Assembly (NCBI GenBank): GCA_903918755.1
Contig: CAIXFN010000034.1
Span: 1-64,000, forward strand
Length of the DNA stretch: 64,000 bases
Source: an uncultured Pedosphaera sp.
GTDB taxonomy: Bacteria > Verrucomicrobiota > Verrucomicrobiia > Limisphaerales > Pedosphaeraceae
Direction: 5' to 3'
The position numbers and the translations under genes are program-made. The notes under the pieces are model-generated. The model worked only from the letters and a program-made list of their open reading frames with translations. It made no database searches and was not told the DNA's origin. Numbering within the stretch: position 1 is the stretch's first letter; every line of letters begins with the position of its first letter. This document shows, piece after piece, positions 20,871-26,571 of the stretch.

Positions 20871-22394
20871 TTACCCCGTCCATTTGAGCCATTGCCGGAA
20901 CAAGCTTTTCACCCGGGGCGTCAAACGCGTCCGATTGTAAGCGTCACCACATTGTCGGATGGCCTCGGCCTGAGTGGGATAGGGATGAATGACGGCAGCG
21001 AGCCGCCCCAAGCCCAGCGGCGCGGCCATAGCCACGCTGATTTCACTGATGCTTTCGCCCGCGTGCGGAGCCACGATGGTGGCCCCGACAATTTGGTCCG
21101 TGCCCCGGCGGACGAGGATTTTAACAAACCCCTGCTCGGTGCCCTCGCAGATGGCCCGGTCCACTTCGGAGAAGGGACGGAGATAAGTATCGACTGGCAC
21201 CTCATGGGCCCGGGCATCGGCCTCCGTCCAACCCACATGGGCGATCTCCGGGTCGGTGTAGGTCACGCGCGGAATGGTGAGGGCACTGAGTTTTTTGCGA
21301 CCCCAAAACAGCGTATTCTGGATGACCAACCGGGCGGCAAAATCCGCCGCGTGCGTAAACTTGGACCGCAGGCAAACATCTCCGGCGGCGTAAATCCTCG
21401 GATTTGTCGTCTGCAAGCGGTCATTGACCTGCACGCCCGTCACGGGGTCAAAGGCCACCCCCACCCCAGCCAAATTCAGGTCCTCCACATTCGGCTGGCG
21501 GCCCGCGCCCACCAGGATTTCATCCACCACCATGGTCGCCGGGCGGCCACCGGAAACAAAATGGATCCTTTTACCTTCGGGCAGCCGTTCGACCCGCTCC
21601 ACGACCGTGTTCAATTCCAAGCGCAGTCCCTCGCCCTGGAAAGTCTTTTCCAATACCGCCGCCGCCGCGGGATCCTCCCGCTCCAGCAACCGGCCATGCC
21701 GGTGCAGCAGCACCACTTGCGCACCAAGCCGCTGAAAGGCCTGGGCCAGTTCACAACCCACCGGACCGCCACCGACTACTGCCAATCGGCGAGGCAATTC
21801 GGTGAGATTGAAAACAGTTTCATTGGTGAGGTAGCCCGTCTCCGCCAGGCCGGGAATTTCCGGTGCCACCGCCCGGGCCCCTGTGGCAATGACGGCGTGT
21901 TTAAAGCATAACCGCTGGCCCGCCACCTCCACCATGTCCCCGCCCGCAAAACGGGCCGCACCGAGAAAGACATCCACTCCCAACCCGGCGAAGCGGGCGG
22001 CGGAATCATGGTGGCTGAGCCGCGACCGGATCCCGCGCATCCGGGCCATCACCGCGGCAAAATCCACCGTCACTCCGGACGGCACCCGCACGCCCAACCG
22101 GCCCGCATCGCGTACCACCGCCGCCGCGCGCGCGGCGGCCAACAAGGCCTTGGACGGAACGCAGCCCGTGTTAAGGCAGTCTCCGCCCAGCAAATACCTT
22201 TCCACCAACGCCACCCGTGCCCCCAATCCGGCGGCGCCGGCAGCCGTCACCAAACCGGCGGTGCCCCCGCCGATAACCACGAGATGGTAGCGGCCGGTCG
22301 GGACGGGATTCCGCCAATCGGGCGGATGGGTTTGCGCCACCAACTCGCGATTGGCGTCGTCCCCGGGTGAGATTTCGATGCGATCGGAATTCAT
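20871..22394 (-). CDS. mercuric-reductase-like pyridine nucleotide-disulfide oxidoreductase
   Basis: This 507-residue flavoprotein has FAD-binding VVIGGGTAG (39-47), the redox-active pair Cys73/Cys78 in GGDCLNTGCVPSK, a second nucleotide site VVGGGPVGCE, ATGARAVAPEIPG, YAAGDV, and C-terminal dimerisation motif HPYPTQAEA. It lacks the N-terminal HMA domain and the C-terminal vicinal Cys pair of true MerA, so mercury reduction is not supported. It starts in a 4-bp ATGA overlap with the TVP38 gene and closes the leftward arm with the ArsM-like gene. In that setting a role in thiol or arsenical redox chemistry is inferred. Confidence 0.88.
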   Translation of the reverse strand: MNSDRIEISPGDDANRELVAQTHPPDWRNPVPTGRYHLVVIGGGTAGLVTAAGAAGLGARVALVERYLLGGDCLNTGCVPSKALLAAARAAAVVRDAGRLGVRVPSGVTVDFAAVMARMRGIRSRLSHHDSAARFAGLGVDVFLGAARFAGGDMVEVAGQRLCFKHAVIATGARAVAPEIPGLAETGYLTNETVFNLTELPRRLAVVGGGPVGCELAQAFQRLGAQVVLLHRHGRLLEREDPAAAAVLEKTFQGEGLRLELNTVVERVERLPEGKRIHFVSGGRPATMVVDEILVGAGRQPNVEDLNLAGVGVAFDPVTGVQVNDRLQTTNPRIYAAGDVCLRSKFTHAADFAARLVIQNTLFWGRKKLSALTIPRVTYTDPEIAHVGWTEADARAHEVPVDTYLRPFSEVDRAICEGTEQGFVKILVRRGTDQIVGATIVAPHAGESISEISVAMAAPLGLGRLAAVIHPYPTQAEAIRQCGDAYNRTRLTPRVKSLFRQWLKWTG

Positions 22395-23119
22395 GATTTG
22401 GCGGCCGGGTCGTCGAGGACCGGTTGCAAGGCGCGGCGCGCGAGGCGGGCCAGCACCCAGGTCACCGCCAGCGTCGCCATCAGGCCGACCCCGTAACCCA
22501 GCCATTGGATCGGCCGGCGGCCCGGACCGCCGCCCGCGTGGGCCAGCGAACCCAGATACACGTAAAGCACCGTCCCCGGCAACATCCCCAACCAGGAACC
22601 GATGACGTACACATGCCAGGGGACCCGGGTGAGACCGAGAGCGTAGTTCAACGGGGCAAAAGGAATGACCGGCGAAAGGCGGGTAAGCAAAACGATCTTC
22701 CATGAATCTGCCGCCACCGCCCGATCCATGGCGGCAAACTTGGGCTGGCGCGCGACCCACCCAGCCACTCGCTCCCGCAGGAGATAACGCCCCACCAGAA
22801 ACGCCGCCGTGGCTCCCAGGGTGGAAGCCAGGGATACCAGCAAGGTGCCCGTGACCACGCCATAAATCGCCCCGGCCCCCAGGGTCAAAGCGGAACCCGG
22901 CAGCAAGAACACACAGGCGACCACGTAAATCACCACAAAGACCACCATCCCCCAGGCACCCCGGTCTTGAATCCACGCCAGCGCCCGCCCCCACGCGGCA
23001 TTGCCCGAAAGCCACCACCAGCCGAGGATCAACCCCAAACCGAGCATTACCCCGGGCAGCCATTTTGTGAGCGCACGAGTCCCGGGCGAGGCGGAGGGAG
23101 CGGGTGCGGGGTCGGACAT
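22391..23119 (-). CDS. TVP38/TMEM64 family membrane protein
   Basis: The protein is 242 residues and has about six hydrophobic segments. It carries the VTT/SNARE-associated family signatures FLLPGSALTLGAGAIYG and the re-entrant-loop stretch TRLSPVIPFAPLNYALGLT. Bacterial members are inner-membrane proteins of unclear transport function, and they often accompany mercuric-reductase-like flavoproteins, as here (4-bp overlap). The ArsM-like gene ends 10 bp upstream, so all three are probably co-transcribed. Confidence 0.88.
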   Translation of the reverse strand: MSDPAPAPSASPGTRALTKWLPGVMLGLGLILGWWWLSGNAAWGRALAWIQDRGAWGMVVFVVIYVVACVFLLPGSALTLGAGAIYGVVTGTLLVSLASTLGATAAFLVGRYLLRERVAGWVARQPKFAAMDRAVAADSWKIVLLTRLSPVIPFAPLNYALGLTRVPWHVYVIGSWLGMLPGTVLYVYLGSLAHAGGGPGRRPIQWLGYGVGLMATLAVTWVLARLARRALQPVLDDPAAKS

Positions 23120-23129
23120 GGCGGCCGCC

Positions 23130-24248
23130 TTAATCGCAATCGTTCCCGCCGGAGCAACATCCGCCCGGATTGCTGGTCACGCGAAAATCCCGCCTTTTCG
23201 CCACCACCGGCGCGGGTTCGTTTCCGGACGGTAGCATCGCAAAGACACCCTCATAAGGCGGGCGCCCGAAGGTGGCGAGCGCGGCGGCATCGACCGGGAC
23301 TTTCCGCCCCCGGGGAAAACGCCGGCCGGCATCATCGACCACCTCCCGGAACGGCCCCAAATAAACCACTTCCCCGGGGCCGGCCCCGCCGGAAACCACC
23401 GGCGCCTTGTACGCCACCACCGTCACCGCCCGAAAATCGATCCCCGCCACGGTCCGCCACGGGGCGGCATCGCGCTTGACGATTTCCACGCCGTGGAATC
23501 CGGCGGCCAAAAATCCGTCCAGAAATCCGTCAGCCGTCAGGGCGCCGGAAATGCAGCCACTCCAGAGTTCCGCATCCTGCCGCAGGGATTCCGGCACCGG
23601 ATGGTCGGCAATGATATCCGAAATAACCGCCCGGCCACCAGGGCGCAGGACGCGGAAAATCTCGTGGAACAACCGGTTCTTCTCCCCACCGTCCACCAGG
23701 TTTAAGACGCAATTGGAAACCACCACATCCACGGCGGCATTGGCCACCAGGGGTTGCTGCACCCGCAGCGCGGCGGCGCGCGCTTCCGCCGCCAGGAAGG
23801 CCTCCCCGCCGGTGATGGGATGCGCGGCCAGTTCGCGATCCAACAATTCCAGATCGAGCGCGAGATCCTGGATGCGGCCCTTGCGAAATTCCACATTCGC
23901 ATACCCCACCCGCTCCGCGACCAGGGGCGCATTGCGCCGCGCCACTTCCAGCATTTTATGGGTCATGTCCACCCCGATGACGCGCCCGGTCGGGCCCACC
24001 ACCTGGGCCGCGATGAAACAAATCTTGCCGGTGCCGCTGCCCAGATCGAGGACCGTCTCCCCGGCCCGCAAATATTGACTCGGGTCGCCACAACCGTAGT
24101 CTTTCGCAATGACTTCCTCCGGAAGGTTCTTGAGCCAGCGGGAATCGTACTCCACGGGACAGCAAAGCGCGGCCTCCGGGGCGTGGGCCGCGGCGGCATA
24201 GCGTTCCCGGACAGCGGTCTCCGGACGGAAGGAAGGCAGCATATTCAT
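23130..24248 (-). CDS. arsM: ArsM-like arsenite S-adenosylmethionine methyltransferase
   Basis: The protein is 372 residues. The SAM site is VLDLGSGTGKIC with GVD at the next strand. The cysteines at the four positions used by ArsM enzymes to bind As(III) are all present: Cys29/Cys30 in ALCCPVEY, Cys53 in DYGCGDPS, Cys180 in SNCVLNLV and Cys232 in SGCISGAL. A Cys-rich tail (GGCCSGGNDCD) ends the protein, as in many ArsM. The reaction is stepwise methylation of arsenite to mono-, di- or trimethylarsenicals. The ATG at 24248 is preferred; the frame extends upstream but reads as non-coding. It heads the leftward arm with TVP38 and the flavoprotein. Confidence 0.87.
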   Translation of the reverse strand: MNMLPSFRPETAVRERYAAAAHAPEAALCCPVEYDSRWLKNLPEEVIAKDYGCGDPSQYLRAGETVLDLGSGTGKICFIAAQVVGPTGRVIGVDMTHKMLEVARRNAPLVAERVGYANVEFRKGRIQDLALDLELLDRELAAHPITGGEAFLAAEARAAALRVQQPLVANAAVDVVVSNCVLNLVDGGEKNRLFHEIFRVLRPGGRAVISDIIADHPVPESLRQDAELWSGCISGALTADGFLDGFLAAGFHGVEIVKRDAAPWRTVAGIDFRAVTVVAYKAPVVSGGAGPGEVVYLGPFREVVDDAGRRFPRGRKVPVDAAALATFGRPPYEGVFAMLPSGNEPAPVVAKRRDFRVTSNPGGCCSGGNDCD

Positions 24249-24439
24249 TCGTGGCAGTGGCGGTAACCAATGTCCCAGTAGTCGCATACCCCGCGAAAAT
24301 TGCAAGTGCGGCCACGCGGGCCGGCTTTGCCTTGATAAAAATACGGACCTCTCCATTCTAGCCAGCTCAGAACTCCTGCGGCCATAAAATTTGCGTGACC
24401 CGCAACGAAGGCCGACCAGCTCCTCTCCCTTAAACGAAT

Positions 24440-24468
24440 TTGACAAAGCGCCGTCAAGTGCTTTACTT
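24440..24468 (+). promoter_or_regulatory. predicted promoter of the AbrB-PIN toxin-antitoxin pair
   Basis: A consensus -35 box TTGACA (24440-24445) is followed after 17 bp by a weak -10 TTACTT (24463-24468). The antitoxin ATG is at 24476, almost at the predicted transcript start, so the mRNA would be leaderless or nearly so. Confidence 0.45.
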
Positions 24469-24475
24469 TTATTTC

Positions 24476-24721
24476 ATGGTAAAGACTCGCATATCCAGTA
24501 AAGGACAAACAACAATTCCACGCGCCATATTAAAGCTTTGGAACACCCAGCAGGTTTTCTGGGATATGAATCCGGACGGCTCGGCGCGCGTCACGCCGAC
24601 GCCCGACATCATGTCGTTGCTGGGCAGTGCCGGTAGTGGCATCCAACGTGACCCCGATGAAAAGCGAAAGGCTCGGGGCGCCGTGGGGAGGAATGCCTCC
24701 GAGGAAGGCCTGTCCAAATGA
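24476..24721 (+). CDS. AbrB/MazE-type antitoxin
   Basis: This 81-residue protein opens with KTRISSKGQTTIPRAI, the swapped-hairpin SpoVT/AbrB DNA-binding signature of VapB/MazE antitoxins. WDMNPDGSARVTP forms the second half and a charged tail should bind the toxin. Compared with typical members (IPxxIRxxLGLKPGDRVxW) the middle is altered to IPRAILKLWNTQQVFWDM, losing the Gly-Leu-Lys-Pro-Gly-Asp turn. Its stop overlaps the toxin ATG by 4 bp. It should neutralise the PIN toxin and repress the operon. Confidence 0.85.
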   Translation: MVKTRISSKGQTTIPRAILKLWNTQQVFWDMNPDGSARVTPTPDIMSLLGSAGSGIQRDPDEKRKARGAVGRNASEEGLSK

Positions 24722-25137
24722 GCCAGCGCATCCACCTGGACGCGAATGTCATCATGCGTTTCCTGCGCAACGATGACTCGAAGCAATCACCCGCCGCCGC
24801 GAAGCTTTTCCAAAAAGCCGCCAATGGAAAAGCGGCGCTCTTCGTTTCAGCAGTGACCATCAACGAAGTCTTTTTTGCGTTCACGTCGTCATACAAGCTT
24901 TCCCATTCGGACGTTGCCCAAAAGCTCCTGCCTTTTGTGCGCACCGGCATCGCGGAATTCGAACATGAAACCTGCCTGCTGGACGCGTTGCGGAGAGTGA
25001 GTGCTGAAAATGTGGATTTTGGCGACGCCTATCTGGCTGCCTTTGCCGCCCAGCGGAATGACTCGGTGGCCTCGTTCGACCGCGATTTGAAAAAATTCAA
25101 GGACATCAAACTTTACGAGCTTGAGGAGAAGAACTGA
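24718..25137 (+). CDS. PIN-domain (VapC-like) ribonuclease toxin
   Basis: This 139-residue PIN domain has all acidic positions in place: Asp8 in HLDANVIM, Glu in TINEVFFAF, Asp in NVDFGDAYLA and Asp in SFDRDLKKF. VapC enzymes cleave tRNA or rRNA when free of antitoxin. It is translationally coupled (ATGA) to the AbrB-type antitoxin. The pair lies in the divergent gap between the two arms of the arsenic-type locus and appears intact. Confidence 0.9.
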   Translation: MSQRIHLDANVIMRFLRNDDSKQSPAAAKLFQKAANGKAALFVSAVTINEVFFAFTSSYKLSHSDVAQKLLPFVRTGIAEFEHETCLLDALRRVSAENVDFGDAYLAAFAAQRNDSVASFDRDLKKFKDIKLYELEEKN

Positions 25138-25641: not shown

Positions 25642-26571
25642 ATGAAAGACGCGACTAACCGCCCCCCCCCGCTGCTGCCGCTGGCGGCGCTGGATGCGCT
25701 GTGGTTTCAGGTAGCCGGCACCCTTTGCAATCTCCGCTGCCGCCATTGTTTTATTTCCTGCGCGCCGGACAACCATACCTTTGGCTTCATGACGCTGACG
25801 CAGGTGCGTCAGCACCTGGCGGAATCGGTGGCCCTCGGCGTGCGGGAGTATTATTTCACCGGCGGCGAGCCCTTTCTGAACCCGGATATTTTCGAAATGC
25901 TGGCAGCCGCCCTCGCCCTGGGGCCCGCCACCGTATTGACGAACGCCACCCGCTTCACCCCGGCCAATGTGGCCCGTTTGGCGGCCCTGCGGGATGCCTC
26001 CTCCTATTCGCTCGAATTGCGGGTCAGCCTGGATGGGTTCACGGCGGAGACGAATGACCCCATCCGGGGTCCGGGCACCTTTGATCAGGCCATGCGGGGC
26101 GTGGAACTACTGGCCGGGGCGGGATTTCTGCCGATTATCACCGCCATGCGCTCCTGGGACCCGCAACAAGATGAGGCGGTCCTGGCGGGATTCCGGGAAC
26201 AACTCACGGCAGCCGGTTGTTCGCGGGTCCGTTTGAAATTGCTCCCGGCACTCCGGTTGGGGGCCGAGGCGAAACGGGACCACGGTTACGGCGAAGACGA
26301 ATTCCTCACCGAGGAGATGTTGATGGGGTATGACCCGCGCCAATTGCTCTGTCACAACAGCCGGATCGTGAGCGACCGGGGTGTCCACGTCTGCCCCATT
26401 TTGATCGACCAACCGGCAGGCTGGCTCGGAGCGACGCTCGCGGAAGGATTGCAACCCGCCCGGCTAAGCCATCCGGCTTGCACCACCTGTTACGCCTACG
26501 GGGCCATTTGCTCGAACGCGGGCGGCCTGGGCTTGGAAACCGCCCGTCCGCCGGGTAACCTGCCGTCATGA
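25642..26571 (+). CDS. radical SAM enzyme of the arsenic-type locus
   Basis: The product is 309 residues with the 4Fe-4S motif CNLRCRHC (Cys29, Cys33, Cys36), the GGEPFLNPDIF SAM-binding loop and further barrel strands (LRVSLDGF). The C-terminal third has additional cysteines (QLLCHN, GVHVCPI, PACTTCYAYGAICSN), a SPASM-like arrangement able to hold an auxiliary cluster. It is not obviously ArsS, whose C-terminal domain is DUF3641-like. The FAD oxidoreductase gene follows with a 4-bp overlap. Substrate unknown; the neighbouring ArsM suggests adenosylation or carbon-arsenic chemistry, which is inference. Confidence 0.85.
   Translation: MKDATNRPPPLLPLAALDALWFQVAGTLCNLRCRHCFISCAPDNHTFGFMTLTQVRQHLAESVALGVREYYFTGGEPFLNPDIFEMLAAALALGPATVLTNATRFTPANVARLAALRDASSYSLELRVSLDGFTAETNDPIRGPGTFDQAMRGVELLAGAGFLPIITAMRSWDPQQDEAVLAGFREQLTAAGCSRVRLKLLPALRLGAEAKRDHGYGEDEFLTEEMLMGYDPRQLLCHNSRIVSDRGVHVCPILIDQPAGWLGATLAEGLQPARLSHPACTTCYAYGAICSNAGGLGLETARPPGNLPS

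Follow-up and report, generated by a model that had tools for sequence, protein, structure and literature searches.

A widespread, unnamed radical SAM family that may take the place of ArsS in arsenosugar-type gene clusters

A radical SAM (rSAM) gene in an arsenic locus of an uncultured Pedosphaera sp. belongs to a separate, widespread and so far unnamed radical SAM family, whose members are linked to arsenosugar-type gene clusters and, in a sample of the phylum, never share a genome with ArsS. To our knowledge, ArsS is the only enzyme known to adenosylate arsenic. Linkage and exclusion are observed, while substrate and product are what we infer. On the evidence set out below, it is rather probable that the new family does the job of ArsS in those clusters which lack it. 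To a broader statement we give roughly even chances: that a second rSAM family, independently derived or very anciently split, forms the adenosyl-arsenic bond, that bacteria have swapped it with ArsS within similar clusters, and that the enzyme described here works in a compact arsenate-to-organoarsenical operon, together with a redox metallophosphoesterase and a flavoprotein. The window, as used below, is the whole stretch analyzed, 64,000 nucleotides of contig CAIXFN010000034.1; the relevant features are collected in Table 1.

Table 1. Genes of the arsenic locus in the window
Feature	Coordinates	Strand	Remarks
MerA-like FAD oxidoreductase, arsenosugar-type cluster	20871..22385	-	start not fixed
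VTT-domain membrane protein, arsenosugar-type cluster	22391..23119	-	
ArsM arsenite methyltransferase	23130..24296	-	start not fixed; the open frame reaches 24446, with an in-frame TTG at that position
AbrB-like antitoxin and PIN-domain (VapC-type) toxin	24440-25137		between arsM and the rSAM operon
Radical SAM enzyme, unnamed family	25642..26571	+	ATG start, 309 aa
FAD/NAD(P)-binding oxidoreductase, ArsV-like, 395 aa	26568..27755	+	start overlaps rSAM stop by 4 nt
Metallophosphoesterase, Car1-type, 263 aa	27752..28543	+	start overlaps preceding stop by 4 nt; CxC C77, C79

The radical SAM core, PF04055, is recognized in the window protein at 71.8 bits (gathering score 29.5), and the motifs listed in the initial annotation are all present: CNLRCRHC (CX3CX2C) at residues 29-36, GGEPFLNPDIF at residues 74-84 and five C-terminal cysteines, C237 (LLC), C251 (HVC), C280 (PAC), C283 (TTC) and C290 (AIC), spaced CX13C...CX2CX6C. 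The three cysteines of the CX3CX2C motif and the five C-terminal ones are invariant in an alignment of 25 family members, at only 27-39% identity to the window protein, so the pattern is not a product of chance. Judging from sequence, the five invariant residues probably hold an auxiliary Fe-S cluster. An AlphaFold2 model of the window protein, made without an alignment, reached a pLDDT of 40, too low to be used.

The initial annotation had also doubted that this enzyme is an ArsS of the DUF3641 type, a doubt which the profile searches justify. No DUF3641 match was found in the window protein or in its 24 relatives; a canonical ArsS from the window's taxonomic family matches the same profile at 1.6e-51. 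Against the ArsS model TIGR04167 the window protein scores 47.4 bits, over the core only and below the NCBIfam cut-off of 300. Canonical ArsS is thus ruled out. The top NCBIfam model is Rv1681 (NF049973), with 96.4 bits (cut-off 380), confined to residues 28-188 and leaving the C-terminal third unmatched; the same model is the best curated one for the core in all 25 members, and no curated NCBIfam or Pfam model covers the family. Neither of the two results named beforehand as refuting, a DUF3641 match or a clean match to a radical SAM family of known function, was therefore obtained. The C-terminal cysteines had in addition been described as SPASM-like: a conserved set is indeed there, but no member among the 25 matches the SPASM profile and the spacing is not the textbook one, so that the term stands for a mere resemblance. 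A SPASM peptide maturase was likewise considered and ruled out, since the profile does not match and the recurring neighbours offered no candidate for a peptide system.

Neither 57 relatives of the window's genome nor a further 285 genomes of the class sample yielded a full-length homolog; 23 full-length relatives were found in other classes of the phylum. The family spans 16 taxonomic families of the phylum sample, as well as Alpha- and Gammaproteobacteria. Searching plasmids by tblastn retrieved a full-length relative on a plasmid of Roseomonas haemaphysalidis (37% identity) together with a frameshifted member from Marinobacter adhaerens HP15, which shares 55% identity with the main-group member of G467. 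The Marinobacter copy (plasmid L006:14737-15829) has no arsenosugar-type neighbours in the annotated 31 kb, and is probably a decayed transfer. Single-sequence scans of assembled genome contigs, and of viral contigs alike, gave generic radical SAM matches only. The open-access literature on arsenosugars and radical SAM enzymes, to which the search was confined, yielded only the arsinothricin paper and a review.

Most members share a further conserved cysteine (ITExCM), replaced in the window protein by LTEEML; the latter is thus a divergent member, minus one near-invariant cysteine, and lies, together with the G451 protein, on a long branch. A single clade for the family is neither shown nor rejected by the full tree (AU p 0.34); in a quick tree omitting G451, the remaining members form one side of a branch. 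ArsS is found on a branch of length 6, so the tree does not place it relative to the new family.

An ArsM-like gene lies within about 8 kb of the rSAM gene, and often next to it, in 15 of 23 loci, while two more feature MerA-like, VTT or glycosyltransferase genes; DUF547, VTT and MerA-like genes and the glycosyltransferase families TIGR04282 and TIGR04283 occur together in many of them. The ArsM-like genes mostly score under the strict NCBIfam cut-off, and for the ten proteins checked arsenite methyltransferase is, below that cut-off, the best family in every case; the "arsenosugar" label carried by families of the TIGR04282/TIGR04283 type is partly a matter of NCBI naming. A methylthioadenosine-phosphorylase-like gene, with PF01048 above its gathering score, adjoins the rSAM gene in one locus (L057) and lies near it in another (L073), which would fit a need to strip adenine from an adenosyl arsenical. 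In eight loci an FNR-like flavin reductase is found near the rSAM, for which it is a possible electron donor. No precursor-peptide system was found among the recurring neighbours.

The Roseomonas copy is surrounded by TIGR04282, TIGR04283, two DUF547, VTT and MerA-like genes, and a Car1-like metallophosphoesterase belongs to the same gene run; no ArsM was found in the 31 kb examined around it. This run (L005:13517-18919) also contains another radical SAM gene, of the TrsS/Tes-like kind, together with an importer of the PhnD/E/C type, through which arsenate or an organoarsenical might enter the cell. An ECF-type sigma factor recurs beside both ArsS and new-rSAM clusters (L081:5835-7162, L059, L060, L061, L068, L069, L071, L072 and L073), accompanied in some loci by a putative anti-sigma gene, which hints at a shared regulation of the pathway in the two kinds of cluster.

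The distribution of the two enzymes was compared in 388 genomes of the phylum, all searched for the rSAM, for ArsS and for TIGR04282. The rSAM was found in 24 genomes and ArsS in 21, and no genome has both; when the 24 rSAM genomes were searched directly for ArsS, none was found. TIGR04282 is present in 20 of the 24 rSAM genomes, in all 21 ArsS genomes and in 9 others. Fisher p values are 2e-16 for association and 2e-7 for exclusion, but these counts ignore relatedness, and two contrasts inside taxonomic families therefore weigh more; two such families, one of them the window's own, contain both ArsS genomes and rSAM genomes. In family f111, G451 has the rSAM, ArsM and both glycosyltransferases linked, and G480 has ArsS beside TIGR04282 and TIGR04283, the latter sharing 51% identity with its G451 counterpart. 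Within f1, the family of the window, ArsS is present in G172, G289 and G290, and absent from the window's genome. In G290 the cluster reads ArsS-ArsM-DUF547-VTT-MerA-like; the ArsM, VTT and MerA-like proteins of the window's genome are 64, 49 and 69% identical to those of G290, and the rSAM operon faces their genes. Both TIGR04282 and TIGR04283 score above cut-off in the window's genome, on other contigs, not linked to the rSAM.

TIGR04282 is also found with neither enzyme, in the 9 phylum-sample genomes just mentioned (L098-L106) and in 7 of 58 relatives, and its presence is therefore no proof of an arsenosugar route; such genomes may solve the step in some other way, may be incompletely assembled, or may use the glycosyltransferase for a different purpose.

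The initial annotation had left a choice between a divergent ArsS and a different chemistry. As stated, this choice is not supported, because what is found is a separate, widespread family standing in the place of ArsS within the same kind of cluster; the same chemistry performed by a different protein is hence likelier, and a chemistry other than that of ArsS is possible but less likely.

The setting of the window's gene agrees with the arsenic locus originally proposed, its neighbours being ArsM, an ArsV-like flavoprotein and a Car1-like metallophosphoesterase. Both junctions in the run formed by the rSAM and the last two overlap as ATGA, so that the three genes probably make up one operon; it is divergent from the arsM-VTT-MerA-like genes, which stand upstream. 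The MerA-like protein is 59-71% identical to those adjoining ArsS in relatives. The AbrB/PIN pair occupies the spot where, in G290, ArsS stands upstream of arsM.

Homologs of the flavoprotein, 35-37% identical over 98-99% of its length, are located in ars operons, and the one from Rhizobium rhizogenes is flanked by ArsR and ArsK, which we take to be the setting of ArsV (arsRVK operons). The metallophosphoesterase matches PF12850, and its homologs are found in ars operons beside ArsM, ACR3 or ArsR; C77 and C79 are invariant with four homologs, three of them from ars operons. The DxH metal motif is changed to GxY both in the window protein (GGVYSN) and in its Roseomonas homolog, which is likewise linked to this rSAM family (GGPYSN), which argues against an ordinary phosphatase.

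If the rSAM acts as ArsS does, arsenate would be reduced to arsenite by the Car1-type metallophosphoesterase, and arsenite converted by ArsM to dimethylarsinite. The [4Fe-4S] cluster of the CX3CX2C motif would then cleave SAM, and the rSAM would add the 5'-deoxyadenosyl radical to arsenic, giving 5'-deoxy-5'-dimethylarsinoyl-adenosine, from which adenine would be removed before glycosylation of the ribose by TIGR04282/TIGR04283, whose genes lie elsewhere in the genome. Oxidation of the trivalent intermediates may fall to the ArsV-like flavoprotein.

Among the alternatives, the one that survives best, although unlikely, is that the rSAM makes a C-As bond, or modifies the methylated arsenical, with some other group, such as the 3-amino-3-carboxypropyl group in the case of ArsL, yielding a different organoarsenical. 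The sequence is, after all, not that of ArsS, the best NCBIfam match of the window ArsM is the arsinothricin ArsM model (321 bits, cut-off 500), and ArsL shows radical SAM enzymes to be capable of joining arsenic to other portions of the SAM molecule (PMC8552651). However, ArsM proteins adjoining canonical ArsS in relatives from the same taxonomic order and family are 58-64% identical to the window's, and the model match therefore does not point to arsinothricin; ArsL is moreover a longer protein, in which the motif lies near residue 194 and no more than three cysteines are conserved, and the glycosyltransferases and the phosphorylase-like gene fit a nucleoside product.

It is more doubtful that the rSAM, while part of an arsenosugar-type pathway, has as its substrate an intermediate of a later step or a partner other than an arsenical (lipid, sugar or peptide), the ArsS step being missing or carried out by an unknown enzyme. 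Genomes having TIGR04282 and neither enzyme would suit this explanation, as would a core whose nearest families, Rv1681 and the SPASM peptide maturases, differ in function; yet an enzyme of a later step should co-occur with ArsS, which is the case in 0 of the 388 genomes, and the recurring neighbours include no peptide system on which it could act. Least probable of all is that the family replaces ArsS elsewhere and its divergent window member has taken on a new function as part of an arsenic-detoxification operon, as its long branch, the lost ITExC cysteine, operon partners typical of resistance operons and the lack of full-length homologs in the relatives and the class sample might suggest, since every other conserved cysteine is kept, the likewise long-branched G451 protein is encoded in a complete cluster that contains ArsM and the two glycosyltransferases, and the window's genome is without ArsS while the partner genes persist.

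Arsenosugar producers would naturally be sought with the ArsS profile. If the new family performs the ArsS step, that profile would overlook about one in two genomes of the arsenosugar type in the phylum sample (24 versus 21), and the attachment of a nucleoside to arsenic, the key step, may be served by two different enzymes in bacteria. These would represent two solutions to a rare C-As bond reaction, and could be compared with respect to what the mechanism essentially requires, the need for C-terminal cysteines included. Should the family do something else, it would mark a new class of organoarsenicals.

Among known systems, the Rv1681 family (NF049973) provides the best curated model for the core; we know of no link of that family to arsenic. 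SPASM and twitch enzymes (MftC, NirJ, PqqE and others) similarly combine a radical SAM core with C-terminal cysteines, candidate ligands of auxiliary clusters, but the new family differs in lacking a SPASM match, in cysteine spacing and in the absence of a peptide or haem gene context. ArsL of arsinothricin is also a radical SAM enzyme paired with an ArsM, but has 428 aa, the motif at 194-201 and three conserved cysteines only (PMC8552651), whereas the window protein has 309 aa, the motif at 29-36 and five more invariant cysteines, and does not fit the description of ArsL.

Car1 is an arsenate reductase evolved from metallophosphoesterases, with essential Cys74 and Cys76 in a published homolog (PMC12124457); compared with this published description, the window protein shares the metallophosphoesterase fold and a CxC pair at the expected place, and differs by the missing DxH metal motif. 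ArsV, a flavin monooxygenase, is listed among the oxidizers of organic arsenicals (PMC11719878), and the window flavoprotein is likened to it by the context of its homologs (ArsR / NAD(P)-binding protein / ArsK).

The closest comparison is with ArsS, whose reaction is known from work cited in PMC12159101. The new family lacks DUF3641, remains far under the TIGR04167 cut-off, has GGEP in place of the GGAPE of ArsS and, in most members, conserves the ITExC cysteine; when the two profiles are compared, the radical SAM core alone aligns, over 170 columns. A collinear, cysteine-paired alignment of the C-terminal domain with DUF3641 scores 13.3, versus at most 8.6 in 20 column shuffles, with E = 0.013 and a probability of 2%, and is only suggestive of homology. 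The two families nevertheless share a radical SAM core in a protein of about 310 aa, the same order of C-terminal cysteines (MC, C, CxxC, C) and the same gene partners, ArsM, DUF547, VTT, MerA-like, TIGR04282 and TIGR04283.
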